Of a stretch of DNA of 64,000 nucleotides, positions 19,697 through 60,325 are shown piece by piece; position 1 is the stretch's first letter, and each line of letters starts with the position of its first letter. The stretch is from Chaetoceros tenuissimus (taxonomy: Eukaryota > Bacillariophyta > Thalassiosirophyceae > Chaetocerotales > Chaetocerotaceae), in NCBI GenBank assembly GCA_021927905.1, contig BLLK01000022.1:682001-746000 (forward strand), in the 5' to 3' direction. The notes beneath the pieces were generated by a model, which ran no database searches, was not told where the DNA came from, and was given only the letters and a program-made list of their open reading frames with translations. The position numbers were made by a program, and so were the translations under genes.

Positions 19697-19730
19697 CCAG
19701 GCAAATCTTATGTGTTTTTTTCGACGTCAT
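19697..19730 (+). repeat. Left terminal inverted repeat of the MULE
   Basis: 34 bases beginning CCAGGCAAATCTTATGTGTT; the exact reverse complement lies at 26382-26415. A further AGTGTCAA just inside matches the other end after a small offset. Confidence 0.88.
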
Positions 19731-19802
19731 ATCTAGTGTCAACCGTACGTAACTTTTTCAGTACGGCTTTGGAGGGGGAGAAAATGAATTTTTGTACGTA
19801 CA

Positions 19803-19867
19803 GACAGACAGACCATTTCAATAGGCCATTTAAGAGAGACAGACAGACCACTTGAATAGGCCATTTA
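19803..19867 (+). repeat. Two direct repeats with GACAGACAGACC and AGGCCATTTA
   Basis: Two units of about 30 bases, 35 bases apart, inside the left end of the MULE. Repeated subterminal motifs are typical transposase-binding sites in DNA transposons. AGGCCATTTA recurs outside the right end at about 26579. Confidence 0.7.
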
Positions 19868-20106
19868 GGACATTTTCTGGTTTCATTGACGCCAGTACTT
19901 TCAATACGGGATGAAGTGCTACGCAACACATCTTGCACAAAACACAAGCGCAACCAACACAACAACTAATCACAACTAGCTTTCATTGCATGTCAGTATC
20001 TGCTTCTCAACCCAAGTCCCATTGTGAGCCAGCTACATAGTATCTTTAAATTGCTGTATTTGCCCTGGTTGTGTTTATTGAGCTGTTCTGTTTCTTCATT
20101 TGAAAG

Positions 20107-20217
20107 TCAAAGGTTACTTCGTGTTTCGACTTTCAACTCTTTGTTTGGTACTTTTGCACTACTGTGGAAGAGCATCCAAACGATCTGTTTATTTTCAAAG
20201 GTTACTTCGTGTTTCGA
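20107..20217 (+). repeat. Direct repeat pair (23 bases, spaced by 88)
   Basis: The same 23 bases, beginning TCAAAGGTTACTTCG, occur at 20107-20129 and 20195-20217, just upstream of the first transposon gene. They may be binding sites in its promoter. Confidence 0.75.
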
Positions 20218-20269
20218 ATCTCGACTTTTCTTTCGGTGCTCTGACAGTAGTGCTTTAGTGTAACCCATC

Positions 20270-21010
20270 ATGGACCGGAAAGGAGGAAGTACACAGTCAG
20301 CTCACAACATTGGACGTATATTCAATTTTTTTCGTGGGTCCCATGGGAAAAAGGCAATACAACTACTTGATCAAGAAAAACATTGTACATATGAGTACAT
20401 TGATTACTATAAGTGCAAACACTCTCTAAGAGATACAAGTCTTATCTGTTTAAGATCTGAAAAAGAATTGATCAACGATGAAGTGATCCTCATAGCCTTA
20501 TCTATCCTAACGGATCAATTTTACGAACTCGAGCAGGCATATGCATGGGAAGGAATTTTTATCATTAAGGACCCAATATTTGCACACCAACTACTCGCTA
20601 TCAATTGTTCTGATCCAAGCAAGAAATCATTTAAGATCGGAAACGTTCAACTAAGTCACGATGAACTTGCAAAACATGTCGGTGGATATTTTGGTAAAGC
20701 AAGTAGTAGGAATTTAAGAGGATGGACATTAGAAAATGACCTGGATGGATATGAAATCAATCAGTTAATATTCCCTTGCTGCATTCCTCATAAGCATTGG
20801 TTTATGGTTCGCATCCTTCTTGATGAAAAAAAAATAATGTGTTCTAGTTCGGACTACAGATCCATTCTTTTTGGGAAAGAGGAATTACCCGAAGAATTTT
20901 CCTCATTCCAATATTCCTTCAATGAAGAGTTTCTGTGCTATATGAAAAGTAGAAAGAAGACGAAGAAGGTTTTGAATAGTTGGTGCCAAACGTCCAGGAT
21001 TCTCTCATAA
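20270..21010 (+). CDS. MULE cargo protein, N-terminal part with Ulp1-like His region
   Basis: 246 residues from ATG 20270. The second half looks like the first part of a C48 (Ulp1/SENP-type) cysteine protease: a substrate-groove helix region (LINDEVILIALSIL), then INQLIFPCCIPHKHWFMVRILLD, where His-Trp at 176-177 would be the catalytic His and its Trp neighbour. The frame stops at 21010, but the matching catalytic-Cys region continues in the overlapping frame that opens at 20977. Either a small frame change has split one gene, or a frameshift or tiny intron is used; I see no standard slippery heptamer in the overlap. Ulp1-type proteases are common passengers of plant Mutator elements. Their role in transposition is unclear. 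Confidence 0.62.
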   Translation: MDRKGGSTQSAHNIGRIFNFFRGSHGKKAIQLLDQEKHCTYEYIDYYKCKHSLRDTSLICLRSEKELINDEVILIALSILTDQFYELEQAYAWEGIFIIKDPIFAHQLLAINCSDPSKKSFKIGNVQLSHDELAKHVGGYFGKASSRNLRGWTLENDLDGYEINQLIFPCCIPHKHWFMVRILLDEKKIMCSSSDYRSILFGKEELPEEFSSFQYSFNEEFLCYMKSRKKTKKVLNSWCQTSRILS

Positions 21011-23046
21011 CTCTATTCATGTGCTACACAATGAACCAGACCGCGTCATTTGTTTTTGACCAGTTTAAGATTGATGACCCAAACATGCGCCTAGAATGGA
21101 AGTTATGTTTTGATCACGAGGTCATCCAAATTGATGGATCTAAATGTGACGGTGGTTTGTACTGTCTTCATATGATTGATACAACGTTACGACATTATAG
21201 AGGTGACACAAAATATTTCAACAAGATTGAGAAGAATGGCAGGGGCACTCTTTTAAATTACATCACAAATCTTAATTTTGTGACTCGGAAATTTCTAGCT
21301 TTAGAAGAAGATGATGATGATGACGATGAGGTGCAAATTGTTGAAGAAACTATGAGTGTTAAGGAAGTAATTACAACTATTGCCTCACCAAGTAGAGCAA
21401 ATCCTAACCGAAAAGCCAAACTACTCTCTCAACCAACACCTCGTGAGTTACCTAATCCAGATCTAACTGAGACATTGAACACAACGAAGATGGGTGCAGT
21501 TGGTACCAAGTTATTGAAGTCTATTTTTCTTGATTACAATGCAGATGATGAAACGAAAAAAATCTTCCGTAATTATCTCAGAGAATTTGGTGCATATGTG
21601 CTGACTAATGCGCCAATCGAATCAACACCGGATGAGGATTTGAAAATCATTGCTTACATTTTAATTGAGCACAATCACCTGAGAGAATTCCCAGAAACAG
21701 AGAATGAACCATCAGAAGAAATTCCTGAAACAAAGATTGAACAATCTCAATCCTGTGCAATTGTCCATCTTCATAGCCATACAACCAATCATGATTATTC
21801 AAAGTCTGTCTTTGGCAAGGGTCCTCGCAATACAGTTAGAGAAAATCGTGAAAAGGGTTTGTTTCAGGATAGTATTCCTCTACGATACCTGATGTCTCAG
21901 GTTGCTCGTATGTTAATGTCCCAAAATAAACGTGATGGAACAAAAATGAAGGCCCTTTATTTCCCAGTTTATAAAACAACCACAGATGAACATGGGCATC
22001 ACACAAGAATGAAGAAGAGGAAAACAGAAAGCATTGTATACCCAGACAAATTTAAATTCCGTAGAGAAATTGACAAAGTGGTGGAGCAAAATCAGAATCT
22101 GCGAAAATTGTTTGGTTTCCATATTGAAAGAAAGAAACCACCAGTGAATGCATTATACACTACGGAGGAATATGAGTGGTTGTATAAGCCAGATATCGAA
22201 TATGGTAGCAACATACTTCTGATTGGTCAAACTATTAGTCATGTGACAAAATGTGCCTTGCAAAATCTGACAAATATGGAAGGGCAATTGAAATTTCTCT
22301 TGGGTGTTGGTCAAGAACAAGATTTGTCTTCGCATGTTATGTATCTAGACCCTCATGCAGTAACCGATATACAGTTCTTTCCAGCGGAGGAAAGCAATGC
22401 AGAACCCAATCTCTATGCTAACAATCGTTGGTTTGGATATAAACACGTTCCAAAAGTAAATGAAAAAACTGAGTTAGCATTATCTGAAAATCTCACATCG
22501 ATGATTGAAGACAAGAAGAAAGAAACCAAAACCTCTCAAAAGCGACAATGGATCAGGCCAGAAGTTGGAGGTGCTGTTTCTTTAATTTCCAAAGATAGAT
22601 CTTGTGTGTGGTTATCACTAAAATCAATGCTCCAGCGCCACTTCAGTCATCTTCTGCCAAGATGCAAGATTCTTGAAGATAAATACAGCTCCGGTAAATT
22701 TGAAGACTTGCGTTTTTTCAAGGCTAAAGTCAAAGGCAAAGATATTCCACTGAGTGAACTTTTAAAGGAAATGTCAATTCAGATTGTGAAGGAGAAAACA
22801 CCGGATAAAGTGGATATCTTTTCTTTTCTTCAAAAGGAATTGAAGGACAACAAATGTTATCTTTGCATGCTCACAAACATACATCGTGAATCAATACATG
22901 CCATTGGAATTGAAACGTTTAATGGAAAAGTAATTTTGAATGACAGTGGTATTATTCATGAGTATGATGGTAAAAACAGTCTTTCCAAATGTTTGGGTGA
23001 TATTCCTTGCATTGACGTGAAATTCCTTTGTCATCTTAATCTATAA
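20980..23046 (+). CDS. MULE cargo protein, Ulp1-like Cys region plus second protease-like domain
   Basis: 688 codons in the frame that overlaps the previous stretch by 31 bases; it opens without an ATG (TTG at 20980; first ATG at 21019), so it is probably the continuation of the upstream gene. IQIDGSKCDGGLYCLHMID, near residue 50, fits the Gln and Cys boxes of C48 peptidases. An acidic stretch follows (EEDDDDDDEVQIVEE). The last 150 residues form another region with SKDRSCVWLSLKSML, IHAIGIETFNGKVILNDSG, that is Cys, His and Asp in papain order, resembling C39 or OTU-like folds. It therefore may hold two peptidase-like modules. The middle (about 200-500) is not recognised. It ends 6 bases from the convergent transposase gene. 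Confidence 0.58.
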   Translation: MVPNVQDSLITLFMCYTMNQTASFVFDQFKIDDPNMRLEWKLCFDHEVIQIDGSKCDGGLYCLHMIDTTLRHYRGDTKYFNKIEKNGRGTLLNYITNLNFVTRKFLALEEDDDDDDEVQIVEETMSVKEVITTIASPSRANPNRKAKLLSQPTPRELPNPDLTETLNTTKMGAVGTKLLKSIFLDYNADDETKKIFRNYLREFGAYVLTNAPIESTPDEDLKIIAYILIEHNHLREFPETENEPSEEIPETKIEQSQSCAIVHLHSHTTNHDYSKSVFGKGPRNTVRENREKGLFQDSIPLRYLMSQVARMLMSQNKRDGTKMKALYFPVYKTTTDEHGHHTRMKKRKTESIVYPDKFKFRREIDKVVEQNQNLRKLFGFHIERKKPPVNALYTTEEYEWLYKPDIEYGSNILLIGQTISHVTKCALQNLTNMEGQLKFLLGVGQEQDLSSHVMYLDPHAVTDIQFFPAEESNAEPNLYANNRWFGYKHVPKVNEKTELALSENLTSMIEDKKKETKTSQKRQWIRPEVGGAVSLISKDRSCVWLSLKSMLQRHFSHLLPRCKILEDKYSSGKFEDLRFFKAKVKGKDIPLSELLKEMSIQIVKEKTPDKVDIFSFLQKELKDNKCYLCMLTNIHRESIHAIGIETFNGKVILNDSGIIHEYDGKNSLSKCLGDIPCIDVKFLCHLNL

Positions 23047-23052
23047 AACTGT

Positions 23053-26000
23053 TTAAAAGTTACCTGTGGTATTGTTTAAATCACTTCGTTTTAAATTCCG
23101 ACGATTGTATTCATGTCTGCTCTTTAAACGACCTTTGACAGAAGTTCCTTGACCAGCATTCAAAACTGCCACTGTTCCCACATCTTTTGGATTTGATATA
23201 CTACCAATTGCACCACCTTCCTTACAACGTTTTTGAGTAACAATGAGATTGACTTCTTCTATTGTCTGCGAAGAGCAGGTATCAAACAATAAAGCACAAT
23301 TTGCCAAAAAATCAGCACGAGTGGTTGTATTTGTAAATGCTTCAATTGTTAACAGAGATTGTGACTGTTCTTGACCATATGTGGATTGACTACCACCAGT
23401 CTGTGAAAGCTGTCCCATTCCTTGTACGGGGCCATCATAATGATATGCACTATCTTCATTATCATTCCCAAAAGCCATATCATCATGATGTGCTGTGTCA
23501 TTTTGATGGTTTTTCATATATTTCTTATAATTGTCTGATCCACGACAGAGGTATCCTTCATGTAATATTGCACTTTGTACTGCACAGATAGTTTGATACG
23601 TTTGGGACTCTGTGTCAATAGTCCATTTATCCACAAATGAACAATCATTGAGTACACATCCACGAAATATTCCATTAGAGTCAAAGCCTTTTTCTATTGT
23701 ATCTTTGAATACTTCTTCCAGATTCTCCTGTAACATCGCTGGTGCATAGTCACGATCAAAGTAATAATTGAATACTTTCCACCACCGAATATGATAAAGC
23801 TCTGGTCTCAAATATGTCTCATCATCAATAACAGCCATGATATGAATACAAGGAGCCATGTATTCATGGACAAATCCACAATCACAATGGATTCGATTGT
23901 CAGCACTTATATGCACCACTCGAACATGCTCAAATCTAGTATATTTGCTAGTGCCATCATTATCTGTGTCGAAAACACCAGCGATACCTTCTCTGTCATC
24001 TACACATCCAATCTCAATTTCTTCAAAGATAGAAGAGCGTATCACTAACCATTTCCTATTTCCAATGTAAACAGCAGTAACAAATTCCCTTTTATCAAAA
24101 AATTTGATTGCTAAACTTTCCATGTACTTGGTTAAAAAGGGGGCAGTTTGTGATCGCGACCATATCTTGGTTGCATTGATATCTGCTGCCATCACTGTAT
24201 GCGCACGTTTATTCTTAAATTGACTTTGTTGGATCAATTGATAACCTGATTTTTCAAGTGTATGTCTATGATCAACAGCATGGGGTGTATTGTGTTTTAA
24301 TGTACTGTTCTCTGCCTCTGAAATAGAGCTTCCCCTAAAGCCAAACGTGGGTAAGTATTTAAATATCCAATGCCCACAGTTATCTCGGAATTTATCAAAA
24401 TTCTTGAGGATACCATCAATAGCTATGATGTGATGATCTTTAAGTTGCCCAACTTCTTTTGCCAAATTATACATAGTCTCAAAATCCTTGCGGGACTTTC
24501 TATATTCTGCCTCGCTTTCTATGGAAGTAAACCATGAAAGTATGAATCCACGGATATCCTTTAGGCATTGTTTTGTTTCAAGAGTAGTGCTACTGTCAAT
24601 AATAACATTCTTTAGCCACTCCTGGATCACAAGATGATACATGTCCAGCCTGTGTTTAATTCCTGTTGAGTAATCGCGCTTATTGTCGGTGCCCATTCTA
24701 ATGGCATCAATCAAAGCCATCTCTGCATCACTCGCTACACAAAGCATACGCTTTGTAGTGGAGGTACCAAAAAGATATGGCATTGCTTCGGCAATAGGCC
24801 AAATATATGCTATGGTTTGTTTCGAGGGCATAAAACAATGCATAGTTGTTACTGTTTTCATGTGCCCAGTGACAACCGTAAATGAGAAAAGATTTCTTCT
24901 GAGTCTATTCAAACTAAATGTCATGTCACATGAAGAGAACTCAGGGAACATCTTCATGGAACGGATTTGGTCATCTGTAGCCCAGCAAATTGAGACCAAT
25001 ACTTTTGTGTTTTCATCCAAACTCAATTGGCTTCTCATTTCAGATATTTCACTACGGTATTTATTCTCAAGAGCTAGATGGACAGCATTATTACTGGACG
25101 AAACAACTTCCTTTGATTTTCTAATACGGTTATACACAACTAAACCTGAGTCTGGTTCATGAAAAACGTAGACATATGAAATGTCATCCATTGATTCCAT
25201 CATAGCTAGCAGCCGTTCTGCATCTTGTCCATGAGGTATTTTTTTAACTTTGGCAAAAATATCATCCAGCTCTTTCTCTTTAAAAGAACGAATAGTACTG
25301 TGCGAGACGTAAAGGTTGTATGTCTTTTGTACTAGCCCTACTATAGTATGGCATGGAACGTTGAGTTGAACGTTATACTTTATAAACGTTTGTATCTCAG
25401 GAGTCAAATCATTTTTTGCAGCAGTCAAGTGCTCTGGATCTAAAGGTAAATGATGTGTGTGTTGAATAGGCTTGTTGGCAAATGAGACATACCATAAAGC
25501 ATCATTGGGATCTGAATGATTGGACTTTTTATCACAAAACACTGTGAACGCAAATTTACAAGTAGTTTCAGTTGTTTCAGAACGTGAAGTTGAAGTCTTG
25601 TTCTTTTGTCCATTTATGCGTCTCTTCTCATTACGAGGTTGAGACATACTGCATTGGCTTAAGGTATTATGTGAAGACCTACTGCAATGCCTTTTGCTTA
25701 TAGGCTGATGTTCACGACCTTCAATTGTCATTGGTTGTTGTAGCTTGTCATTGAAATTAGCTTTTGAAGTGGAAGTTTGTTGGCATATGTTATGTTTACA
25801 ACAGAATCGTATGTGATGATACTGTGTTTTGTTGTTGCTTTGTTTTCTAGGAAGTATTTCAGTCCCTTGTTCTCTAGCTTTGGCTTTTAGGAATTGGATG
25901 ATGGAATCTTTCATTTCTTTTGAATGACCTTTGAAATTTTCGATACGGAAAGCAGCATTTTTTGGGTAATGATGAACATCCTGTAGAATTTGTGAATCAG

Positions 26001-26208
26001 CCAAGAAACGTTTACTTTGTTGTATACATTCAATTAGATTTATTTCTCTGTTCTTGGACGTACAGCCAGCAGTTGGTACTGCATGAGGTGTCACAACACC
26101 ACAATCATCTCGGTACCAAACTGAGGAACGCAGAGATATAACAGCATCCCACGTTTTAGATTTATCTATAGAGGAAAACAAATCATTAATTTTAGAAGAT
26201 GATGCCAT
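23053..26208 (-). CDS. MULE transposase with SWIM zinc finger
   Basis: 1051 residues from Met at 26208; the frame is open for 64 more codons upstream, but these would lie in the terminal region. The N-terminal half has a Cys/His-rich DNA-binding-type region (CKFAFTVFCD then WYVSF and HTHHLPL), like the FAR1/FLYWCH fingers of Mutator proteins. The RNase-H-like catalytic core has Asp near 428 (FSSCDMTFSLN), Asp near 494 (CVASDAEMALID) and Glu near 631-633 (ISEAENST). The MULE signature runs through FTVVTGHMKTVTTMHCFMP. A SWIM finger follows near 775-789 (HCDCGFVHEYMAPCIHI). The frame is uninterrupted and all key residues are present, so the enzyme could be active. It cuts at the 34-base terminal repeats of this element (inference). 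Confidence 0.9.
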   Translation of the reverse strand: MASSSKINDLFSSIDKSKTWDAVISLRSSVWYRDDCGVVTPHAVPTAGCTSKNREINLIECIQQSKRFLADSQILQDVHHYPKNAAFRIENFKGHSKEMKDSIIQFLKAKAREQGTEILPRKQSNNKTQYHHIRFCCKHNICQQTSTSKANFNDKLQQPMTIEGREHQPISKRHCSRSSHNTLSQCSMSQPRNEKRRINGQKNKTSTSRSETTETTCKFAFTVFCDKKSNHSDPNDALWYVSFANKPIQHTHHLPLDPEHLTAAKNDLTPEIQTFIKYNVQLNVPCHTIVGLVQKTYNLYVSHSTIRSFKEKELDDIFAKVKKIPHGQDAERLLAMMESMDDISYVYVFHEPDSGLVVYNRIRKSKEVVSSSNNAVHLALENKYRSEISEMRSQLSLDENTKVLVSICWATDDQIRSMKMFPEFSSCDMTFSLNRLRRNLFSFTVVTGHMKTVTTMHCFMPSKQTIAYIWPIAEAMPYLFGTSTTKRMLCVASDAEMALIDAIRMGTDNKRDYSTGIKHRLDMYHLVIQEWLKNVIIDSSTTLETKQCLKDIRGFILSWFTSIESEAEYRKSRKDFETMYNLAKEVGQLKDHHIIAIDGILKNFDKFRDNCGHWIFKYLPTFGFRGSSISEAENSTLKHNTPHAVDHRHTLEKSGYQLIQQSQFKNKRAHTVMAADINATKIWSRSQTAPFLTKYMESLAIKFFDKREFVTAVYIGNRKWLVIRSSIFEEIEIGCVDDREGIAGVFDTDNDGTSKYTRFEHVRVVHISADNRIHCDCGFVHEYMAPCIHIMAVIDDETYLRPELYHIRWWKVFNYYFDRDYAPAMLQENLEEVFKDTIEKGFDSNGIFRGCVLNDCSFVDKWTIDTESQTYQTICAVQSAILHEGYLCRGSDNYKKYMKNHQNDTAHHDDMAFGNDNEDSAYHYDGPVQGMGQLSQTGGSQSTYGQEQSQSLLTIEAFTNTTTRADFLANCALLFDTCSSQTIEEVNLIVTQKRCKEGGAIGSISNPKDVGTVAVLNAGQGTSVKGRLKSRHEYNRRNLKRSDLNNTTGNF

Positions 26209-26381
26209 GTTTGTTTCTAATGTAAGAGTATGAAGTATATCTATGGTGCTGGATATGTATTTGTTGATTAGCCAAGCAATGTTGAGCATTTTTAAACTAT
26301 TTCCTGACCGTTGATATTTTTTGGTAACAAATTGTGAATTCGGATATAGAATAAAAAAAGGGGGTGTATTGACACTAAATG

Positions 26382-26415
26382 ATGACGTCGAAAAAAACAC
26401 ATAAGATTTGCCTGG
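26382..26415 (-). repeat. Right terminal inverted repeat of the MULE
   Basis: Exact reverse complement of 19697-19730. Confidence 0.88.
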
Positions 26416-48993: not shown

Positions 48994-49525
48994 ATGTCAG
49001 CAAACAACAATCTACACAGAACTAGCGAGGAGGGTAAAGCTCAAGAGGAAAATGAGGATGAAGAAGAAACATATGATGACGATAGTAGTAGTGAAGAGGA
49101 TGGCCATGTCGATGATGATTCTGAAGATATACCAGAATTGATACCACCTAGAGACGATACTATTAGTGATAGCGATGATACCGAAAATGAGACCGATGAG
49201 GATGCCAACGATGAGATCAGAGTTTATGCATTACCTAGTGTGATACCTCTTCAATTGCGGTGGGGGGATGTCTACGAAGAAGAGGACGAGAATGAAGAAG
49301 AGACTAGATCTGTTTCCACTTCAAATGAAACCATAGAAATGATTAGGAATATAGATGGATGGATTGGAAGACCTTTGATGGGTCGTCAATATTTCAGAAA
49401 TCAGAACGTTGATTGAATATTACATTGACTTTTACCGTGACAACCCTGAATTCATTCCTCCTCGCTGGGAAGAACAAAAAAGTCATGATGACGAAGAAGC
49501 AAAAAACAATAGTGATGAAAAATGA
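48994..49525 (+). CDS. Acidic hypothetical protein, frame changes near its end
   Basis: An ATG at 48994 opens 140 residues that are mostly Glu/Asp/Ser (residues 10-75), then RVYALPSVIPLQLRWGDVYEE and MIRNIDGWIGRPLMG. The frame stops at 49416. An adjacent frame continues with convincing protein character (LIEYYIDFYRDNPEFIPPRW) to a stop at 49523-49525, overlapping the next ATG. A TTTCAG acceptor at about 49391-49396 fits the second part, but I see no good donor, so this is either an uncertain splice or a frameshifted gene. Acidic proteins of this kind are often nuclear chaperone-like, which remains a guess. It does not resemble the Sec23 N-terminus that follows. Confidence 0.42.
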
Positions 49526-51655
49526 ATGTAGATATGTTCAATGTGGCTAGACACAAAATAGCTTTTTATTTTTATTTTCTTTTTTGGGAGTGTTCTTTAT
49601 CTCCTCCATTCAATAGTAATAGCAAGTGTAAAATATCGGATTCACGTTACATAGTGGAAGATTGTGGCAATGCGTCACCAAGACTTTTAAAACCATGTAT
49701 GCAAATACTCCCTCAGAACTCTTCTATTCAACAGAAAACTCAAATTCCTATGGGAGTCATGTGTGCTCCACTTGCAGTGCCATCTGAAGATTACCTTTTT
49801 GATTTACAACATGATGATGAAGATGATCACAAAGAATGCAATTTATACCCCAGAGAAATGGTTCCATTGGTCTATCCATCGTTTAAAGAGAAGGAAGAGA
49901 GACTATTGGAGTCTATTTCGTGTTCTCATTGCAAATCACATTGGAATCCATACATGAAGTTTGAAAGTAAACTGGATGAAATTTGTTTTCATTGTAATTT
50001 TTGTGGAAAAATGAATCACGCCAAGGTTTCAAATGTCTTCGAGCCCGCTTCAGCTCTAGAATTTGGCACTATTGAGTATGACTTGGGTGAATGCGAGAAT
50101 GACACATTGGGACCTATTCATGTATTTGCTATTGATGGTAACGATCGCGAAAAGTTTGAGGTATATTTACAGTCTATCGCCGCTGCTGTGAAGAAAATGG
50201 ATGCAGAAATTTCAATGCAACTACAACATTCGGCAACATTTCATGCAAGAAATAGAGAGACGCAAGTATACCATCATTCATATCCACGGATTGGATTTTT
50301 TATATACATTAACGATGAGGTACTATTTCCTCACTGGGAAAGGAAGAGGAATTGTTCCTTTGATGAAAAAAGGTACATTTTAAATCTTTCGATTATGAAG
50401 GATACAGAAAATCCTTTTTCTCCAATACCTATTACAGACTGGACCTTTATGCTGGGAACTACATGTGGAACTGGACTAGCGAAATTTTATGAACTCATTG
50501 ATCATCTCCATTCAAAAATGGAATCATTTATTCCAATGTCAGATGACAAGAATTGTAGTGGAAGCTTAGCATTGCAAGTTCTCCTTGACGCATTATCAAG
50601 TAATCAAGGTGCAACAGGCACGTTGATTTCCTCCTCTAGAATAAGTTTTGGTACCAAAGGAGAGACGAGTAGTAAGCTACATACTGGAACGAAAAACTTT
50701 TCTCAACACAAATCGGACTTTTTTGAAACATGTGGTAGAAAAGCATCGAGTCACGGGCTTTCGATAAACTTTGCATTTTGTGCTTCTCCCAATGTCATTC
50801 AACACGAACACCTCGATTTTGTTGGAATTGGATTACTTCTACAACAATGCAATGGTGTACTTAAATGGATAAAGTATAACTCAATAGATGACACGCTACA
50901 CAATACTTTGAGTAAACAATTGGTGTAAGTGAAGTGTTGAAGAAGATGTAAATGTTATTTCTACTCAAAGGTCTCACTTTTCATTCTATTTTCAATCACG
51001 AAGACTATTTATTCGAGCTTCTTTGACTTTAGCAGAAGAAGTGCACTTGAGATGTTCCGAAGGACTGCGCATTTTATCATCTACTGCAAATTTGTCATCG
51101 ACAAAGAATAAGACCTTGTCATCCATTTCCCTGGAGCGAAACAGTGTTGGCACAAATTCATGCTTTGCAATTGAGCTAGGCTTTAGAGTTGGAGGCATTC
51201 CTATCAACAAGAGGCTTCCTTATGAAACCTTAGCATATGTGCAGATTACCACAACCTTATGCACATGTGGAAGAAGAAGACTGAGAGTAAGCACTTTAGG
51301 TATGAAGGTGTCGCAGTGTACAGATGATGTATTTTCATCTGTCAATGTTGATGCAATGACAGCTTTTCTTACTCAACAAGCAGCCAGTCGTGTGTGGGAG
51401 ACTGGATTTCACGAAACCCAGAAAGGAAAAGCAAATATCGAAATCCGACTTGAAGCATTGATACAGAAACTCCAAAATTATCGTGGTCAAAGCAACACAG
51501 AGAGTTGCAATTATCTTCGTGTCTACCAACAGGGTATTCGTAGATCAAATTTTTTTGCTAAGGAAGTAGATAAATTTTCTAGGAATAGAATAGATATGGA
51601 TGATGCAGTAGCGTACAATTCATTTGTTAATTATTATTCTCTAAAGATTGTATGA
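49522..51655 (+). pseudogene. Divergent Sec23-like COPII gene, N-terminal and middle parts (split gene)
   Basis: Two open parts, 49522-50928 and about 51036-51655, probably joined by an intron near 50912-51035 (all visible acceptors are phase 1). The zinc finger is CSHCKSHWNPYMKF to CNFCGKMNHA, followed by FGTIEYDLG, as in Sec23 (TIEYV). The trunk domain shows IHVFAIDGND and FVGIGLLLQQCNGVLKW. The second part has HLRCSEGLRI, YVQITTTLCTCGRRRLRVST, and VYQQGIRRSNFFAKEVDKF, matching the Sec23 FHLRRSSFLQVF region. It then stops after VNYYSLKI. The gelsolin-like remainder is at 58808-59290. Sec23 is the GAP for Sar1 in the COPII coat. The true start is uncertain because the first 30 residues are not Sec23-like. 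Long open frames despite the split suggest a recent break or an unusual expressed form. Confidence 0.62.
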
Positions 51656-52815
51656 TTATTGTAGAATACTGCAGAATAGCGATCAATATCTGTTTTCATA
51701 GGACATATACCATGGAACAAATCTGGGCGCATAAAAACAACGTCACCAGTTTGATACTGAAGACGAAATCCCAAAGAAGGAAATGCCAGCTCGCCCTCTC
51801 CTTCCAATTCTTGGTCAGTTTGAATCGAGATAACAGATGGGAAGTTCTTTGTTTGCGGGTCAGTATCTACATGACCACCACTCAAATGGACTTTGTTGAC
51901 AAGATTTGTTGTTAATTGAAAATTCGAGTCAAAAAATGCATTTTTCATTTTCTCTTTCTGTGTTTCGTCATGATGATTCTTTCCAAAAAAGTAAGGGAGG
52001 TACTCTTCAACAATAAGTTCCATCTCCTCAAGATACTGTTCTATATATGGTCTGACAACATCAAAATTGGGTTCAAGACCCTTGGACTCCCAATGACGCC
52101 TAATTGAAGTTGCAGCATCAGGGCCTGGGTCCTTACCAGACCCAAAAGTAGCACGAGAGCAAGGGTTCTCAAGCCCTAGAGGAATCTCCCTACCATGTTT
52201 GTTTTTATATAGGATTCTACAAGAACGACCTGTAATGATTGCCTTGAATTCATCACACCAATTAGTTCCAAGTTTTTTCCGTGCTTCAGCATCCTTTGCA
52301 CCACGACAAATATGATTTTCAGCAGGTAGCGCACCGATTTTACATTGGCGTGTAACATTCAATGGGAAAGTATTATGCAATTCAAATAGATATGACTGCC
52401 CTTTCAGAGCAGTTTCGGACAAGGCACCTTTGAGTGCTAGTACCTCGATCTTATCTGAAAAGAAAAATGTTTCCTTTGAAAAGTTTTTTGTTTTGGTTGA
52501 GATTAGATGGGTCTGATTTTTTATATCTCTATTCAAAATCAGACCCTGGGTTTCACTCTTTTTAAAATCAAATCTTTGGCATTTATAAAACATCTTACCT
52601 TTTTGCATCCTTTTGGAGATGCCTGCTAAATCTTTCAGTTGTTTGAAGAATTTGATTTTCTCCTTTTTGGAGAAGGCTCTGAGTGGATTCTTGAATGTAG
52701 GACGAATTTGTTTCATGATTTCGACAAGATTGAATACCATTCTACGAATCGCATCAGGAGAGTGTGTCTCCCATCCGCTTTCACTGTAAGTTACTGTGGT
52801 TTTGAAAGCTGACAT
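51634..52815 (-). CDS. 2-oxoglutarate/Fe(II)-dependent oxygenase
   Basis: Single exon, 393 residues. The C-terminal third has the double-stranded beta-helix signature: VHLSGGHVDTD with the His-x-Asp iron ligands, GEGELAFPSLGFRLQYQTGDVVF, MRPDLFHGI with the distal His, and DRYSAVFYNN with the Arg that binds 2-oxoglutarate. The N-terminal 250 residues are basic (KKEKIKFFKQLKDLAG) and not recognised, with CRGAKDAEARKKLG near 175. The layout, an unknown basic N-terminus and a large oxygenase end, recalls nucleic-acid oxygenases of the TET/JBP type found with transposons, but prolyl-hydroxylase-like activity is equally possible. Its last codons (TIFRE and stop) lie in DNA that reads as Sec23 on the other strand, so its end coincides with the edge of the inserted block. 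Confidence 0.75.
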   Translation of the reverse strand: MSAFKTTVTYSESGWETHSPDAIRRMVFNLVEIMKQIRPTFKNPLRAFSKKEKIKFFKQLKDLAGISKRMQKGKMFYKCQRFDFKKSETQGLILNRDIKNQTHLISTKTKNFSKETFFFSDKIEVLALKGALSETALKGQSYLFELHNTFPLNVTRQCKIGALPAENHICRGAKDAEARKKLGTNWCDEFKAIITGRSCRILYKNKHGREIPLGLENPCSRATFGSGKDPGPDAATSIRRHWESKGLEPNFDVVRPYIEQYLEEMELIVEEYLPYFFGKNHHDETQKEKMKNAFFDSNFQLTTNLVNKVHLSGGHVDTDPQTKNFPSVISIQTDQELEGEGELAFPSLGFRLQYQTGDVVFMRPDLFHGICPMKTDIDRYSAVFYNNHTIFRE

Positions 52816-54459
52816 GTTTATTTATGTTACATCTACTGTATTTGTATGAGACGTTGTGAATGCTTTCTTGTAATGGCGCACTAAAGTAATTCAAATCGAG
52901 AAAGTTGAGTCAGTCATGCAATAATGAGTTTAATTACATATTATTTAGATGGGATTTTTTTTAAACCTTTGTTTTTTGTACTTCATTAAGCTATCGGAAA
53001 TATGTTTCTTTTGTTCCATGATCTCACTGTGTAATGAAAGGTATGCAGTTGCAAGCAAATGCACTCGTGTATTTGCTTGAGTCCGTCTCTCTCAACTTTT
53101 TTACCGCCACGCTCATTCGAGTGTGAGTGGCTGATTTAGATGGGCGCTGCCGAATCCTGATGTAAAACACAGACGTGTGCTTTGCATCAGGTCTCCTACC
53201 ATTATATGCCAATCATGACACAGTCAAAAGATATGGTCCCTGCTTCTTTGCTCACTGCTCCACAACTATACTGCCAGCTACTGTACTGGTTACTGACACT
53301 GCTACAGCTACTGGCTACTGACACTGCTACAGCTACTGCTACTATCATTTGATTTAATATTTAGAAAATAAGATCTTAGATTGATAAGTTGCTGCTTATT
53401 ATACAAGAATCCTGCTTCCTCATAGTCAAATCATCCGCTGCCAGATCCTCTTGATAACCCTGTTGTAACGAGTCAATTCTCCAACGACGCTTTGTTGGAA
53501 CACATGACTCTTGATGTTTCCTCTTGTACAATCATGAAGTATCCTTACTCTACCCATACCAAGTTATCTATCACTTGACTACGAAATAAATTTGGTTTCC
53601 TCAGACTTCCAAAAGCTGCCTTCCCAAGATTTCTCCTTGCTTGCCGGTTGCAATTGCTCTCAAATCAAATTATACACAAGAACAAAAACACATTTTCTTT
53701 ATCTGTGTATCTGACAGGTTTCAAATAAACTACTTCTTTGATCTATAAGGGAAATAAAACAGAGTAAGTAATATGGTATAAATGAGAATACAAAATAAAC
53801 GCACTTGTGAGCTGAGCATACTGAGAAAGACAGTGTTAACACGACACTATACATGTCAAAGAACCAAAGCTTCAACTCAACCATAACACTTTTCTTTTGT
53901 TTTTTTCAGCGCTCACTCCACTAGACAACATCATTCTCCTTGGAATCTTTTTGCTATCACTTGTCAGACTTAACATAGTGGATTGGATTGTATTACATAG
54001 GACAAGGTATCAATGTGTTGATGTATGTGCGACGGGTTGTGGTTTGTGATTTTCATGGCTCATAACCTGTTCTGTATGATCATGCTATGGTTGGCACACG
54101 CGCGTGTAATTCCTCCGGGTCTTTGAAGTAACAATCAACATTCTTCTTCTCTTTCACAATGGTAGTTTTCAACATAAATTTTTATCATCACTCTTTTTCT
54201 CAATTCAACTTTCAATAGAAATTAGAGTATCCTTTTGTTAGAAATGTGAAGATACACCCTACATGTGATGGTTACCAGTGAGCTATATTTCCCGCCAAAA
54301 ATCTTACACTCGCTCCCACTCATTTCTTGAAAACTTCTTTTCTTTCAAAAGAGTTGTCAAAACACATCAATTATTGGAGTATCTGACATACCTTCTTTAC
54401 AAAAGAACAATGTTGCCCACTGCATCCAAAAATCAAGATCACACCACCAAGAGTAGATT
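52816..54459. other. Long gene-free stretch inside the inserted block
   Basis: About 1.6 kb with no recognisable gene on either strand. A 25-base unit (containing ACTGACACTGCTACAGC) is repeated in tandem at 53289-53313 and 53314-53338, with ACTG-rich flanks. Short open stretches have no protein-like character. Confidence 0.55.
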
Positions 54460-54580
54460 TTGCTCGGAATAGCACTTGGCGCACCCAGTAAGCTTGATGG
54501 TGTTGCTGATTCAGTCAATGAAGGTAAACTACTTGGGAGTAAAGAAGGTCGTGATGTGCGTGTGAGTCTTCCGAATGAAC
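54460..54580 (-). pseudogene. Remnant of a PSxxPS-repeat gene
   Basis: On the minus strand a short frame reads SRPSLLPSSLPSLTESATPS and continues to GAPSAIPS, the PSxxPS pattern of the genes at 7.6-12 kb. No start, signal peptide or Cys-rich tail is present, so this is a fragment. It shows that the PSxxPS family has spread pieces into this block. Confidence 0.5.
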
Positions 54581-55238
54581 ATCAAGCTTCAACAAAAAAG
54601 GATCAAGAAAAGAAATTGAGTGATGCAAAAGAAGCAGCTCGTGCAAATTGTGAAAAGGCAAGAGAGGCAATGAGAAAAAATGAATGAGTATGGAAGATCA
54701 AGAACAGGATGTCAAGGTCGAGAAAGATAAGCTGCAAGACGCTAGCCCAAAGCATAGGTTTTTCAGTAGATCCAAGAAAAATAGTGTTACTGATTTGTCT
54801 GAAGGAAGTACAAAAGCAAAGAAATTTCCATTATCTCCGACTAGATTGAAATCCTTAGAAAGGTACAAGACAGTATTCATCTATTGATAGCAACACGATT
54901 GTTGTACCTCTAAAGATTGAATGGTCAACTCCCAAAGAGCTCCCAGGAAAGAAAAAGGTCCAAGAGAAGAGTAAAAGACATGCAAAGAGTAAGCACAAAC
55001 TGACTGTTCCAAAGACACCAAATCTTTTAACCAAAGAAAAGAAGGGCCAGAGACGTTATTCATCTGTAGGAAAAAGAAGAGGTGACGATGAAGTAGAAAT
55101 GATCTCGCTTCTAGGAAATGGAGTTAAGACAAGAAAGAAATACATGTTGACTGTAGAAATCATATTTTACTTGCCATCAGATGACAAACAAGAAAGAGAA
55201 GAGATAGTGATAGGATACAAGTGTCTGTTAGTATAACA
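54570..55238 (+). pseudogene. Decayed Lys-rich gene
   Basis: Three successive frames look coding in turn: LSDAKEAARANCEKAREAMR (to 54687), then HRFFSRSKKNSVTDLSEGST and PLSPTRLKSLERYK (to about 54870), then VPKTPNLLTKEKKGQRRYSS to TVEIIFYLPSDD, ending at 55238. The changes of frame have no usable splice sites, so it is probably a broken host-type gene. Rich in Lys, Arg and Ser; no family recognised. Confidence 0.45.
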
Positions 55239-55331
55239 ATAAAGTAACAAATAGAATTACTTTATGATATCTACAATGATTGTATGTCCGACAGTACTTC
55301 CTATACCCCCAAAAGGAAAAGAACTGACTTT

Positions 55332-56996
55332 TCAATAGTCTGAATCTGCATCATTTTCGGATGAAGCAGATGATTCAGATTCATCTCCACAAAACTCCTC
55401 TTCGTCGAATTCCTCTTCTTCCTCTTCCCAATTTTCTTCATCAAAAGAATCAACATCTGAATGTTGGATTGCTACCTCCTCATCCTCTTCATCAATAAAA
55501 GGCGCTTCATCCTCCGAATCCTCAATCATGATCACTTCTCTCTGTGCAGGCGGCACAGGAACATCAATAGGCTGAGCAGCAGACGCAGCAACAGATGCAG
55601 CAATAGGCTGAGCAGCAGATGCAGCAACAGATGCAGCAATAGGCTGAGCAGCAGATGCAGCAATAGATGCAGCAATAGGCTGAGCAGCAGATGCAGCAAC
55701 AGATGCAGCAATAGGCTGAGCAGCAGATGCAGCAACAGATGCAGCAATAGGCTGAGCAATAGGCTGAGCAACTTTATTACCTACAAAATATGAGTGAATA
55801 GTCCTCATTTTAGAAACATCAACATCTGCCTGACTCTTGTATCCACGACTTGATGGACCTTTTGCAACAGGCAAAGGAACTTGTTGTGCAGCTGGCTTGG
55901 AGTCTCCATCGTCTTGTGGAGCACTCTTCAAGTCTCCATCATCCTGCGGAGCTGGCTTGGAGTCTCCATCGTCTTGTGGAGCACTCTTCAAGTCTCCATC
56001 ATCCTGCGGAGCTGGCTTGGAGTCTCCATCGTCTTGTGGAGCACTCTTCAAGTCTCCATCATCCTGCGGAGCTGGCTTGGAGTCTCCATCGTCTTGTGGA
56101 GCACTCTTCAAGTCTCCATCATCCTGCGGAGCTGGCTTGGAGTCTTCCTCTGGTGGTAAAAGGTCCAAAATAAATTTGGTACCATTACCATTTGCTGGGA
56201 ATGGTAAACGAAAATTTTGACCTTTGTTTCTATGCTTATAAACCTTTGTCTTCAATGAAACATACAATTTGGAAAAACCAATTCCATTATTTGTATCATC
56301 ATATTCGAGGATGAAATCAAGTGCTTCTGTCATTGTGTTTGTGGATTTCAAATGTTTGTTATTGAGATCATAAATATTCATCTTGTTTGTCACTTCTTTC
56401 ATAGTGTGTGGTAGTTTCTTCTTCATTTTTTTCTCTTTTTCAAGTTTCACATACCACCATTTATCATCCCTAGATTGAAGGAATGGAAGGTGTTCAGATT
56501 CCTTGTATAGAATTGCTTTGCGATAATAATGATATTTTTCATTATCTGTTATTGCTGGCATCGCAAGCTCTTCAATCATATCCATTGGTGTATCAAAGGT
56601 CATTGTTGGTGTGCCAGGAATTTTCTTAACAACAACTTTTTTAAATTGTTCGTAGACATGCTCAATCCTGAAAACTTCCACTTTGCCATATCCTTTGAAT
56701 AAATTAGAAAATTGTTCTCTAGTATTCACTCTTTCGAAATTATTCATGTTTTCTTGGATTTTATCAACCCGTGCCTTCTCAGGGGGTACTAGGTTGTATC
56801 CTACCTCTACCTCTTTTTCGTTGGCAGTGTCATTTGACAAAGATGAAGCTGATGCTGTTACTTTTGAAACTGACGCTGCTACTTTCGCCATTTGCTGTCT
56901 GATGAAATCTATGTTGTCATCTACTTTCTTTGATGAAACAACTGGAGCTGCAATTCTGTTGAATGGGTTTTCCTTGAATGATTTTTCATTTACCAT
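55332..56996 (-). CDS. Hypothetical protein with two minisatellite-encoded repeat tracts
   Basis: Single exon, 554 residues. Residues 1-295 are globular-looking, not recognised, with WWYVKLEKEKKMKKKLPHTM and ALDFILEYDDTNNGIGFSKL. Then come 20-residue repeats (SKPAPQDDGDLKSAPQDDGD) to about 370, a short link with SQADVDVSKMRTIHSYF, then 12-residue repeats (QPIAASVAASAA) and a very acidic end (EEDEEVAIQHSD, EEEEEFDEEEF). VIMIEDSEDEAPF near 500 resembles a SUMO-interacting motif (hydrophobic core beside acids and Ser). SKMRTIHSYF recalls a PIP-box-like end (Q absent). These are weak hints of a nuclear protein. Confidence 0.6.
   Translation of the reverse strand: MVNEKSFKENPFNRIAAPVVSSKKVDDNIDFIRQQMAKVAASVSKVTASASSLSNDTANEKEVEVGYNLVPPEKARVDKIQENMNNFERVNTREQFSNLFKGYGKVEVFRIEHVYEQFKKVVVKKIPGTPTMTFDTPMDMIEELAMPAITDNEKYHYYRKAILYKESEHLPFLQSRDDKWWYVKLEKEKKMKKKLPHTMKEVTNKMNIYDLNNKHLKSTNTMTEALDFILEYDDTNNGIGFSKLYVSLKTKVYKHRNKGQNFRLPFPANGNGTKFILDLLPPEEDSKPAPQDDGDLKSAPQDDGDSKPAPQDDGDLKSAPQDDGDSKPAPQDDGDLKSAPQDDGDSKPAPQDDGDLKSAPQDDGDSKPAAQQVPLPVAKGPSSRGYKSQADVDVSKMRTIHSYFVGNKVAQPIAQPIAASVAASAAQPIAASVAASAAQPIAASIAASAAQPIAASVAASAAQPIAASVAASAAQPIDVPVPPAQREVIMIEDSEDEAPFIDEEDEEVAIQHSDVDSFDEENWEEEEEEFDEEEFCGDESESSASSENDADSDY
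55565..55756. repeat. 36-base minisatellite
   Basis: Five tandem 36-base units from 55565, nearly identical, plus partial units to about 55768. They encode QPIAASVAASAA on the minus strand. Confidence 0.92.
55891..56146. repeat. 60-base minisatellite
   Basis: Three identical full units (55921-55980, 55981-56040, 56041-56100) flanked by partial ones. Each is built of two related 30-base halves and encodes the 20-residue acidic/Pro repeat. Identity across copies shows very recent expansion or gene-conversion-like homogenisation. Confidence 0.93.
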
Positions 56997-57408
56997 TGTT
57001 AGATAATTTTAATGAGATGAGTAGTTGTCTTCTATTGATGCTAAAAAGTATGTTGTTGGAGCAAGCGAGCAAGCTGCTCCCAGTGCATTGGCATCTTTTG
57101 ACATCGAATGGATTCTTTTCATATGTGGCTAGAACAATAGCTATGAGAATTATTATAACGTTATATATAACTGCTTTTTCGGTATCATTTTTTCCCCATT
57201 ATTCTTAGAATGATTAAATGGGCATAATACATTATTTGTGCTAATGACAGATCCGATATGTTTCATTAGAATGGATTATTGCTGCTCATCTTTAAATATA
57301 TTTGTATGCTAATGTTACAAGAATTTGATTTTTCAAATTTGAATTTCTACTGGGCATTGCTGAGAGATTGCTTGATCAATTTCAAATCATCTCATAATTT
57401 CTTTCATC
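56997..57408. promoter_or_regulatory. Divergent promoter region inside the inserted block
   Basis: A 412-base AT-rich gap between the repeat-protein gene (minus) and the oxygenase-like gene (plus), so both promoters should lie here. No motif recognised. Confidence 0.35.
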
Positions 57409-58263
57409 ATGAGTGTTGTATCAATCTTTGATGTAAATAAGAGACTTAGAGTCGGACAACCTCTTCCATACAATCGTCCCACTCCTGGTGAACAACAACT
57501 TGTCAATGATGTATTTGCTGATTGTGCTGTGGTAGAAGTAAGGAAGGACGACATGATAGCAGGCAATCTAATGTCTGATCTATTCTGTAATTTTCTCGTT
57601 ACAAGACACTTCGACTCATACAGTGTGCATAATTCTAAATTATGCAAAACGCTTGATAGATTTTTGGGAGGTGTAGATGCGTTTGAGGGAGAATCTCTCA
57701 CTATCGATCATCTCAAGGAATACAATCCAGAAATTTGGAGAATGATTGAATTTTGTCAACTTGAAGGTGGTGAAATGTTTCCATTTATCCATGGGTATTT
57801 TCCAAGTTTACGAGGAGAGGGAACAGATAAATGTTCTTATCTTGCATTTCATGGAGACTCGCCCAATGCTCAACACCGAAATGGCATTGAGCCTTATGTG
57901 CGTCTTGGGCTTACAAGATTTGCAAAGTTGGAAGAAGGTGCCAAAGAGGGCAATAGCTTGCAAAAGAAAATGGATTTCAGGAGAGTTATTGCGGGTCCTG
58001 GGCCTGTGAAATATGATAGATTTTCACTAGCGCTTGAAGATGGAGATGTTATGTTTCTGGGTCCACAGGCTGCTGGAAAATTTTCGAATATTCAGCATCA
58101 AGCAATGATTCATAAGAGAGACAGTGTTTCACTTATGATCGATATCACTTTTCCACGAGGTTCACGATTCCATGGTTGGACAATCCCACAATTTGCCGAC
58201 TATGTAGTTAGATGTGATGTTTTTGCAGGTAAAGAATATCTTAATATTAGATATGGTAAATAA
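57409..58263 (+). CDS. Second 2-oxoglutarate oxygenase-like protein
   Basis: Single exon, 284 residues. SYLAFHGDSPNAQHRNG supplies a His-x-Asp pair near 150, and FSLALEDGDVMFLGPQA, then NIQHQAMIHKRDSVSLMIDI, supplies a distal His and an Arg in the order and spacing of Fe(II)/2-oxoglutarate enzymes (AlkB and prolyl-hydroxylase groups). The N-terminal half (EQQLVNDVFADCAVVEVRKD) is not recognised. No signal peptide. It is not obviously a copy of the oxygenase at 51634-52815: the iron motif and surroundings differ. Substrate unknown. Activity depends on the pair and distal His being true ligands, which I infer from pattern only. Confidence 0.55.
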   Translation: MSVVSIFDVNKRLRVGQPLPYNRPTPGEQQLVNDVFADCAVVEVRKDDMIAGNLMSDLFCNFLVTRHFDSYSVHNSKLCKTLDRFLGGVDAFEGESLTIDHLKEYNPEIWRMIEFCQLEGGEMFPFIHGYFPSLRGEGTDKCSYLAFHGDSPNAQHRNGIEPYVRLGLTRFAKLEEGAKEGNSLQKKMDFRRVIAGPGPVKYDRFSLALEDGDVMFLGPQAAGKFSNIQHQAMIHKRDSVSLMIDITFPRGSRFHGWTIPQFADYVVRCDVFAGKEYLNIRYGK

Positions 58264-58386
58264 GTAAGAATCTATTACAATTTCCGAAATAATTTCTTCG
58301 CCTTCCTTGCCATCATAATCTGTAATCTGTAACTGATCATAAATTAAATCAAAGCACATTCAATTTTGAAGCATTGATTTCCAATA

Positions 58387-58860
58387 ATGATTCTCAATAA
58401 ATCCAAAGCTATCCTAGCTGCTCTAGGACTTGCATCCATCTCCGCTGCCTCTGCTAAGCAGACCGGAGAAAACTATCCATTCAGTGCCAGAGTTTGGTGT
58501 GTAACAAAAGGAGGATTACCATGCGAAGATCTTTACGATATTGATACTCGTCCAATGATTTGTGGAGATCGTGTCGTCACTATGCACTATGAATACTGTA
58601 ACGAGCTTGCATCTAACAATGTTCAAGCAAAAGCTCCGAGAGTCGAGGTTAAATATCGTAACCAGTTACAATCTGTGACATGGTACCGCACCAGCAATGA
58701 TCAAGTTGTTGATATTTTGGAACCTATGAGGGGATATGAATGCCGTAAAACCGAACACACGACCATCATCAACAACTGTGAGAAAACCACTGTTACGATC
58801 TCTTGCCAATTTGGTGTCCCCATCCAATTCATTACTTTTTGTTCAACCAGCTGTGTATAA
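58387..58860 (+). CDS. Secreted cysteine-rich protein
   Basis: 157 residues. A clear signal peptide (MILNKSKAILAALGLASISA, cut near ASA-KQ) leads into a Cys-rich domain with Cys at WCVTKGGLPCEDLY, MICGD, YCNEL, YECRK, NNCEKT and ISCQF. No family recognised. From about residue 140 the frame runs over DNA that reads as Sec23 in another frame, so the natural end may have been lost and the final 17 residues (QFGVPIQFITFCSTSCV) may be chance read-through. It is likely exported. It lies downstream of the oxygenase-like gene on the same strand, 123 bases after its stop. Confidence 0.62.
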   Translation: MILNKSKAILAALGLASISAASAKQTGENYPFSARVWCVTKGGLPCEDLYDIDTRPMICGDRVVTMHYEYCNELASNNVQAKAPRVEVKYRNQLQSVTWYRTSNDQVVDILEPMRGYECRKTEHTTIINNCEKTTVTISCQFGVPIQFITFCSTSCV

Positions 58861-59290
58861 CTTGAGTGGTCCTTCCCTTTTCGGAAGCCTCATATTAGAA
58901 AATATGAGTTATATAGGTCTTCCTGAGTCGGTCTCTTTGAATTCTATTTTAAACAATGAGAGCATCTATTTGATTGACGGTTATACAGATTTTTCAATCT
59001 ATATTTGTCGATCTGTTGATGCAGATACAAGAGCTGAGTTACTATCGATTCATGAAAATGCAAGGGGACAAAGACTACTCCGGCTTTCAGCAGCTTCTTC
59101 CTTAGGGAAGAAAATTTGGCGTGTCATTAAGCAACTTCAAAGATGCTACAAAAACTCTACATATCCATGGCCTGATAGACCAATGCCATGTGGAGTGTCC
59201 GTTGTCATTGCTAGCGGGGGACTCGGCTATCGTGAAGGGTTTGACTCGGAAATAGAACATGAGATAATTGCATTATTCGATGATAGGTGA
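58808..59290 (+). pseudogene. Sec23-like C-terminal (gelsolin-like) part, detached
   Basis: From about 58826 the frame matches the end of Sec23: NSLLFVQPAVYNLSGPSLFG against the family's [20 protein letters not shown], then ILNNESIYLIDGYTDFSIYI against the ILLMDTFFQILIYHG strand, and IWRVIKQLQRCYKN in the gelsolin-like domain. It ends at 59290. It lacks a start of its own and supplies exactly what the copy at 49522-51655 lacks, with almost no missing residues between. It is 7.2 kb away. Confidence 0.66.
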
Positions 59291-59299
59291 CAAAATACA

Positions 59300-60325
59300 T
59301 TATAATTTAGAAATAACAAAGTTTTTGATTGAAGAAGGTATAAACACGTCTCTGTCTACTGTTCTTAGTTCAACATTACCACGATGTTTCCTGTACATTT
59401 CCAAAACATGTTGACCTGCAAGTGTACGTCTAAGTTCCTTCTTCAACTTGACAAGCTCGGGGGGCATCTTATCATCATTTATTGGCACAATATGTGATAA
59501 CTCAGGAGGATGAATTAATATTGATGCTAAACTTGCAAATGTAAGATCAGCTGCTGTAAATCCAATGTTTTCACATGTTTTATCAGAATCATCACCTCTT
59601 TCCATGAGATATGTCTTCTTAGTACCATCCCTTTTCTGTAGCTGTTTCGAAATACTTACAAAAGCACTTCTGATTTCTATTAAACTATCCGATGCAGTTT
59701 GACTGCTAATTCTCATCGCCTTTCTCATTCCAGTAGCTAATCCTTTGTCAAGAAAGTTAGTCCAAAGAAATTTTTCAACAGTTGAAGTTGTTTCTGTCAT
59801 GATCCTTGATAAAGTATCATGATATTCTTTTTGTAGCATGTGATGATACATATACAACCGCGATGCAGCTCCAATACTCTTTCCTACAAATACTTCGAAA
59901 TCTTGTATTGTTTCTCGAAATGGTTCAGGGTATAATCTTGGTGACAAAAATTGCACAATTTCTTTACTATCATGAAGAATTTGCAATTTTTTATCGATAT
60001 TTTCAAATACAACCATTGGTACCATTGAAACTTTGCTATTTGTTGCAGCCAAAGTTTCAATTGATTGGAACAAAGGCGGATGGGAGTTTTCAGTATAATA
60101 ATATGGGCTCAAGATGTCTCTCTCCAACAAATCTAGAATCCATCGAACCTTTTCACAATAATGCGATGCTCCTATACTTATAAAAAGTATATGTCGGTTT
60201 TTAGAATGAGGGGGATCCCGACGACGAGATCTAGTACTAAAGGTCTCAATAAGCAACTTAGCAGTTTTGAAAGGACTAGCATTCCACAACGCTTCAGGTG
60301 TTGGTTTTATATCTTCCACAGCCAT
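59300..60325 (-). CDS. GST-fold protein (thioredoxin-like plus helical domain)
   Basis: Single exon, 341 residues. HILFISIGASHYCEKVRWIL (residues about 46-65) is the first beta-alpha unit of a GST N-terminal domain, where SHYCEKV takes the place of the usual active-site Ser or Cys. VSMVPMVVFENIDKKLQIL carries the cis-Pro loop (MVPMVV), and SKEIVQFLSPRLYP the next helix. The C-terminal helical domain ends with FTAADLTFASLASILI, close to the GST N-cap motif. The Cys suggests omega- or CLIC-type thiol chemistry over glutathione conjugation. No targeting signal; cytosol likely. It lies 10 bases from the Sec23-like 3' end and is convergent with it. The fold is well supported, the reaction unknown. 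Confidence 0.72.
   Translation of the reverse strand: MAVEDIKPTPEALWNASPFKTAKLLIETFSTRSRRRDPPHSKNRHILFISIGASHYCEKVRWILDLLERDILSPYYYTENSHPPLFQSIETLAATNSKVSMVPMVVFENIDKKLQILHDSKEIVQFLSPRLYPEPFRETIQDFEVFVGKSIGAASRLYMYHHMLQKEYHDTLSRIMTETTSTVEKFLWTNFLDKGLATGMRKAMRISSQTASDSLIEIRSAFVSISKQLQKRDGTKKTYLMERGDDSDKTCENIGFTAADLTFASLASILIHPPELSHIVPINDDKMPPELVKLKKELRRTLAGQHVLEMYRKHRGNVELRTVDRDVFIPSSIKNFVISKL

Follow-up and report, generated by a model that had tools for sequence, protein, structure and literature searches.

A divergent Sec24-family gene in two pieces around a 7.2-kb multi-gene block in the diatom Chaetoceros tenuissimus

The locus

The DNA considered here is a stretch of 64,000 nucleotides from the diatom Chaetoceros tenuissimus (GenBank assembly GCA_021927905.1, contig BLLK01000022.1, positions 682,001 to 746,000), referred to below as the window and numbered from its first letter. 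It contains a gene of the Sec24 family, which encodes a component of the COPII vesicle coat, in two pieces separated by a block of about 7.2 kb. The two pieces are co-linear, lie on the plus strand and are both open (49522–50924 plus 51004 to about 51646 on the left; 58826–59290 on the right), and the block between them carries four open reading frames (ORFs). The most probable explanation of the arrangement, at about 0.58, is that a piece of the same genome was inserted fairly recently and disrupted this divergent gene. The parts of the split gene are as follows:

49522–50924, plus strand: exon 1 of the Sec24-like left piece, with the N-terminal segment, the zinc finger and a very divergent trunk region
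50925–51003, plus strand: putative 79-nt intron (GTAAGT...AAG), placed by eye, which restores the reading frame and is also among the short-intron candidates
51004–51649, plus strand: exon 2 of the left piece, with the beta-sandwich and the helical domain; its last ten or so codons are uncertain
58826–59290, plus strand: Sec24-like right piece, with the gelsolin-like C-terminal domain and the stop codon

The reading frame of exon 2 ends at a TGA at 51653–51655. The start codon at 49522 is uncertain. The ORF upstream of Sec24 is listed as ending at 49416; judged by eye, it may run on in another frame over 49417–49526, and its TGA would then overlap the presumed Sec24 start (ATGA), so that this start may be wrong. 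At the other end, the Sec24 stop codon (59288–59290) and that of a convergent GST-like gene (59300–59302) are only 9 bp apart, making this a very compact locus.

Family of the two pieces

Two Pfam domains were matched in the left piece, both below their curated cut-offs: zf-Sec23_Sec24 (PF04810) at residues 132–166 (E 6.8e-5, 23.2 bits, cut-off 25) and Sec23_BS (PF08033; E 2.9e-6, 28.2 bits, cut-off 33.5). Both cysteine pairs of the zinc finger line up with those of Sec24A. The gene is described here as Sec24-like and divergent because its trunk domain is not recognised by Pfam. Comparison of the joined protein with solved structures in the Protein Data Bank (PDB), at an E limit of 1, returned 15 matches, 14 of which were Sec24 and one an unrelated phage protein; none was Sec23. 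Profiles of the C-terminal part were based on five Sec24 proteins (human A, B, C and D and the yeast protein), on two Sec23 proteins (human and yeast) or on both families combined. The C-terminal part joined at 51649|58826 scored 43.3 bits with the Sec24 profile, as against 6.4 with the Sec23 profile, and 55.0 with the combined profile. The original prediction had assigned the gene to Sec23, an identity rejected on the basis of these two comparisons. It was correct in describing a split gene, with two co-linear open halves around a block of about 7.2 kb, but the end residues that it gave for the halves are not established.

Scored apart with the Sec24 profile, the left piece obtained 30.3 bits and the right piece 10.9 bits. 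With the Sec24 and combined profiles, the two pieces ranked first and second among the 260 stop-to-stop ORFs of at least 60 amino acids (aa) in the window. No shuffled version of the right piece reached its score with either of these profiles (0 of 2000 in each case, with scores returned by hmmsearch for 1415 shuffles with the Sec24 profile and 1359 with the combined profile), and two of the 2000 did so with the Sec23 profile. The two halves belong to one divergent gene of the Sec24 family.

Borders of the block

The original prediction had the two pieces fitting end to end at 51649|58826. The best of 2430 in-frame joins, with both the Sec24 and the combined profiles, lies one codon away, at 51646|58826 (48.5 and 61.2 bits, respectively); the join at 51649|58826 ranked 58th with the Sec24 profile and 28th with the combined profile. 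At the best join, the length from the last helix to the gelsolin strand matches that of the family, whose reference sequences (five of Sec24, two of Sec23) show no gap there.

The borders themselves are not sharp. When the left piece was scored alone, its alignment reached only about position 51508. Codon usage was followed in ten-codon steps, for which the 10–90% ranges are -0.04 to +0.42 for true frames and -0.21 to +0.22 for stop-free wrong frames. On the left, it is Sec24-like up to 51616 (+0.49 in the last step) and undecided over 51617–51646 (+0.10); a drop near 51600 in sliding windows was attributed to stop codons within the windows rather than to a fading of the Sec24 frame. On the right, the frame of a Cys-rich ORF of the block is good up to 58746 and then low (-0.10, -0.06, -0.08, -0.26), and the Sec24 frame is ambiguous ahead of 58826 (+0.04, +0.04, -0.13) and reaches +0.18 just after it. 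The borders are thus estimated to lie within about 51616–51652 on the left and 58747–58833 on the right. As originally described, the outermost genes of the block point outwards and their last codons lie in coat-gene DNA: their stop codons, at 51634–51636 (minus strand) and 58858–58860 (plus strand), are on the Sec24 side of the borders first proposed.

A short direct repeat is present close to the two borders:

51616–51624, no strand: left copy of CAATTCATT, a 9-bp direct repeat and candidate target duplication
58825–58833, no strand: right copy of CAATTCATT, in the same Sec24 reading frame as the left copy, according to the coordinates

This candidate target-site duplication had been overlooked when it was stated that no clear duplication was visible. 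Within narrow zones (56 and 51 bp) that were delimited once the repeat was known, 2000 shuffles gave a match of this length 21 times and 2000 random pairs of window segments 26 times, a chance of about 1% (random pairs less than 300 bp apart were skipped yet kept in the denominator). In wider zones, such a match is not rare (164 of 2000 shuffles; 217 of 2000 random window pairs). If CAATTCATT were a target duplication, the insert would measure 7209 bp and the original gene would have been without ten residues that are otherwise kept; the site collapsed at the repeat scores 8–9 bits less than the best join (40.6 vs 48.5 with the Sec24 profile; 52.1 vs 61.2 with the combined profile).

Contents of the block

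Five features were distinguished in the block, the first and last of which extend over the borders first proposed:

51634–52815, minus strand: 393-aa ORF with a weak Tet_JBP-like 2OG-Fe(II) dioxygenase match; its stop codon lies on the Sec24 side of the border first proposed
54457–55236, plus strand: open pieces that switch frame (frames 2, 1 and 2 in the three-frame translation)
55332–56996, minus strand: 554-aa ORF with in-frame minisatellites, of a 36-bp unit at about 55562–55780 and a 60-bp unit at about 55885–56156
57409–58263, plus strand: 284-aa ORF with no family assigned
58387–58860, plus strand: 157-aa Cys-rich ORF with a start resembling a signal peptide (by eye); its last codons lie in Sec24 DNA

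Codon usage in the four ORFs is that of the window's other genes. Against a training set of 19 ORFs from elsewhere in the window, outside both the block and Sec24, the log-odds per codon are positive in the ORFs' own frames (+0.185 for the 393-aa ORF, +0.325 for the 554-aa ORF, +0.208 for the 284-aa ORF and +0.128 overall for the 157-aa ORF, in which they are low past 58746) and negative in the other five frames, as in Sec24.

Two oxygenase-like genes had been proposed for the block. One of them, the 393-aa ORF, has a Tet_JBP match below the curated cut-off (E 5e-5, 23.0 bits, cut-off 34.9) and a match to phrog_24024 (E 0.0011). The other, the 284-aa ORF, is unsupported as an oxygenase: its Pfam search was empty even at an E limit of 10, a search in which the HMMER filters drop most weak matches, and its AlphaFold2 model is poor (pLDDT 32). 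Kinship between the two is not supported, the hhalign alignment covering a negligible 18 residues (E 0.064, probability 0.9%). The only trace of a paralogue within the window is a weak match of the 284-aa ORF, in antisense, at 14012–13593 (E 0.027). No Pfam match was obtained for the 157-aa ORF, and none over the cut-off for the 554-aa ORF, the N-terminal 280 aa of which were also searched separately; the minisatellites of the latter (55562–56156) differ, with in-register copies 92–98% alike. The frame-switching pieces at 54457–55236 gave no Pfam match at E 0.1 and contain candidate introns from both intron surveys; they may represent a decayed gene or a gene with introns. Rfam detected nothing at gathering score over 49.0–60.4 kb, and PHROGs and NCBIfam gave weak matches only.

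Origin of the block

The arrangement is best explained by an insertion, in which about 7.2 kb of DNA would have split a single Sec24-family gene between its helical and gelsolin-like domains. The inserted DNA would be a piece of the organism's own genome, with the four ORFs and other coding sequence that is broken or bears introns. Its entry may be due to double-strand break repair; transposition, with CAATTCATT as its trace, is less likely. The split copy could yield at most a truncated Sec24. Insertion is supported by the position of the best join, with the gap-free spacing of the family, and by the border ORFs, whose frames continue into Sec24 DNA, as those of genes truncated at a border would; that the block ORFs have the codon usage of the window's genes counts in favour of the organism's own DNA as the source. 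The suggestion in the original prediction that an insertion or rearrangement was the likely cause is supported by the Sec24 halves, by this codon usage and by the lack of inverted repeats at the block ends.

As neither half has lost its open frame, the event appears to be young or polymorphic. In the joined frame of 2508 nt, 5.2% of single substitutions would create a stop codon, so about 1.3 stops would be expected per 1% of neutral change, leaving insertions and deletions aside, and none is present. In humans, patches of DNA at repaired breaks have been described as class 2 templated sequence insertion polymorphisms (PMC5110952). The block would resemble these, as described there, if its sequence came from elsewhere in the genome and was pasted in with no target duplication or poly(A) tail; it differs from the human patches, for which an RNA-derived origin is suggested, in its length of 7.2 kb and its several ORFs on both strands (PMC5110952).

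Some observations weigh against the assignment of the gene to Sec24. The trunk (vWA-like) domain was not reported by Pfam for exon 1 at E 1, and the right piece alone had no PDB sequence match at E 1 and no Pfam match even at an E limit of 10. A single-sequence AlphaFold2 model of the right piece (pLDDT 50) gave 276 Foldseek matches, none at E 0.001 and no Sec24 among the best 50, the model being too poor to inform. Other points weigh against the insertion. No relatives were confirmed in viral contigs (six query sequences), genome contigs (one) or phages (one). The join at 51649|58826 gains only about 2 bits over the separately scored pieces (30.3 + 10.9). Furthermore, the last ten residues of the left piece were equalled or beaten by stop-free random 10-mers from the window in 155 of 3000 cases with the Sec24 profile and 268 of 3000 with the Sec23 and Sec24 profile; the last ten left codons fit Sec24 only slightly better than random peptides (top 5–9%), so that the gain from the join comes mostly from length rather than from residues. 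The open frames could indicate that the split is young or polymorphic, but could also mean that the halves are still in use, and CAATTCATT would argue for transposition over plain repair. Literature searches on Sec24, nested genes or structural variants in diatoms, and on Chaetoceros, revealed nothing on such an arrangement among the entries listed.

Whole genes are known to be nested in the introns of others, in either orientation. The block resembles this in placing whole genes of both orientations within the span of Sec24. A split Sec24 that still works, be it through a 7.2-kb intron with four nested genes that overlap the host exons at their 3' ends or as two non-covalent chains, is unlikely. 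The first of these, with the 7.2 kb spliced out, Sec24 intact in the RNA and four genes nested on both strands, is itself rather improbable. It would be consistent with the two open Sec24 halves, but no credible splice sites were found and, unlike nested genes, the ORFs at the borders have their ends in exon DNA. A single donor is good, GTATGA at 51650, and for it none of the five AGs of 58700–58880 (58704, 58729, 58781, 58849 and 58865) is an in-phase acceptor, in line with the original prediction; 14 other in-frame, stop-free GT-AG pairs exist. Their donors are weak, no usable GT donor having a G at +5. Two pairs come within four residues of the expected length, 51613–58782 (+3 aa) and 51540–58730 (-4 aa), and none restores it exactly. 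Mock junctions yielded a mean of 18.5 GT-AG pairs per trial, with at least one pair within four residues in 73% of 500 trials, so the 14 pairs observed mean little; the best eight of them scored 35.6–40.1 bits with the Sec24 profile, below the 48.5 bits of the direct join. There are also four GC-AG and 111 AT-AC pairs. The best AT-AC pair, giving an intron at 51618–58796, restores the exact length (43.6 and 57.0 bits) but does not outscore random 10-mers placed there; the finding of 111 AT-AC pairs in one small region suggests chance. Published mean intron lengths in diatoms, 115–125 bp in a table that includes Cyclotella cryptica and Thalassiosira pseudonana (PMC5124317) and 254 bp for Skeletonema tropicum (PMC11032307), also argue against an intron of this size. 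A survey of introns of 50–160 nt gave 23 candidates, chance pairs included, and is uninformative on long introns; another survey, permitting long introns, was set aside because the acceptors it chose were implausible.

An assembly artefact, in which an intact Sec24 gene received the block through a misjoin, whether from another haplotype or at a closed gap, for instance, appears improbable. A heterozygous insertion and a chimeric joint would look alike in a single contig, but at the best join the halves keep the family spacing with a deviation of no more than a few residues, which should be rare for a random misjoin, and no exact repeat longer than 9 bp is common to the two junction zones.

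Mutator elements that carry genes are known as Pack-MULEs. They contain fragments of host genes, insert in or near genes and produce target duplications of 8–11 bp, features that the block partly recalls, and some Mutator elements are described as lacking inverted repeats (PMC6446971). The block might be a mobile element that duplicated CAATTCATT, for example a relative of Mutator that has no terminal repeats and carries captured genes; this, too, is doubtful, and as it overlaps with the insertion favoured above, the probabilities of the different explanations do not sum to one. In its favour, the two copies of CAATTCATT share one reading frame, such matches are infrequent in the narrow zones, and a Mutator-type element with a transposase gene lies in the same window, at 19697–26415. 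This resident element has 47-bp terminal inverted repeats (95.7% identical), a MULE transposase gene on the minus strand, whose SWIM finger scores below the cut-off, and, on the plus strand, two ORFs resembling Ulp1 proteases by eye, for which Pfam gave no such match. No common word of at least 6 bp was found at its flanks either, so a missing target duplication is weak evidence here. The search that recovers its inverted repeats found none spanning the ends of the block, in agreement with the original prediction, and this speaks against an ordinary transposon. There was also no transposase match in the four block ORFs or in plus-strand readings of 53.0–55.24 kb (one frame of 53.0–54.3 kb and three frames of the rest, the minus strand of 52.8–55.3 kb not being covered), and no second copy of the block within the window. 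The repeat is only a candidate, as its narrow zone was picked once it had been seen, and collapsing the site costs ten kept residues. Moreover, diatom Mutator elements are listed with inverted repeats of 123–124 bp and the entry 'No TSD and not indicated' (PMC6446971). TET/JBP genes travel on fungal DNA transposons (PMC12730594), which the block resembles in carrying a Tet_JBP-like ORF on possibly moved DNA and from which it differs in the lack of a transposase or termini and in its sub-cut-off match; the word diatom occurs 0 times in the main text of that paper.

Elsewhere in the window, two minus-strand ORFs (9654–10514 and 11294–12133) are near-identical by eye over most of their length, with different ends, corresponding to a tandem duplication.

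Gene fission, in which the halves would be separate genes forming a two-part Sec24, the right one starting at an ATG at 58736, is very unlikely: no stop interrupts the right frame from 58730 on, and the codon usage of the two open halves is coding-like, but the 32 codons before 58826 carry little coding signal (+0.051 per codon), no relative with the same split was found in the viral contigs, genome contigs and phages scanned, and nothing supports a function for a lone gelsolin-like domain.

Meaning of the arrangement

The arrangement is a neat structure of an already known kind. It calls for caution in annotation, as the halves would be named as separate genes, the right one having no Pfam match. 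Continued use of the split gene would make it an unusual gene structure. If the insertion is young or heterozygous, it would provide a clean case of multi-gene DNA breaking a gene for the secretion coat; an empty allele could then reveal, at the level of single bases, how such a block enters a compact eukaryotic genome.

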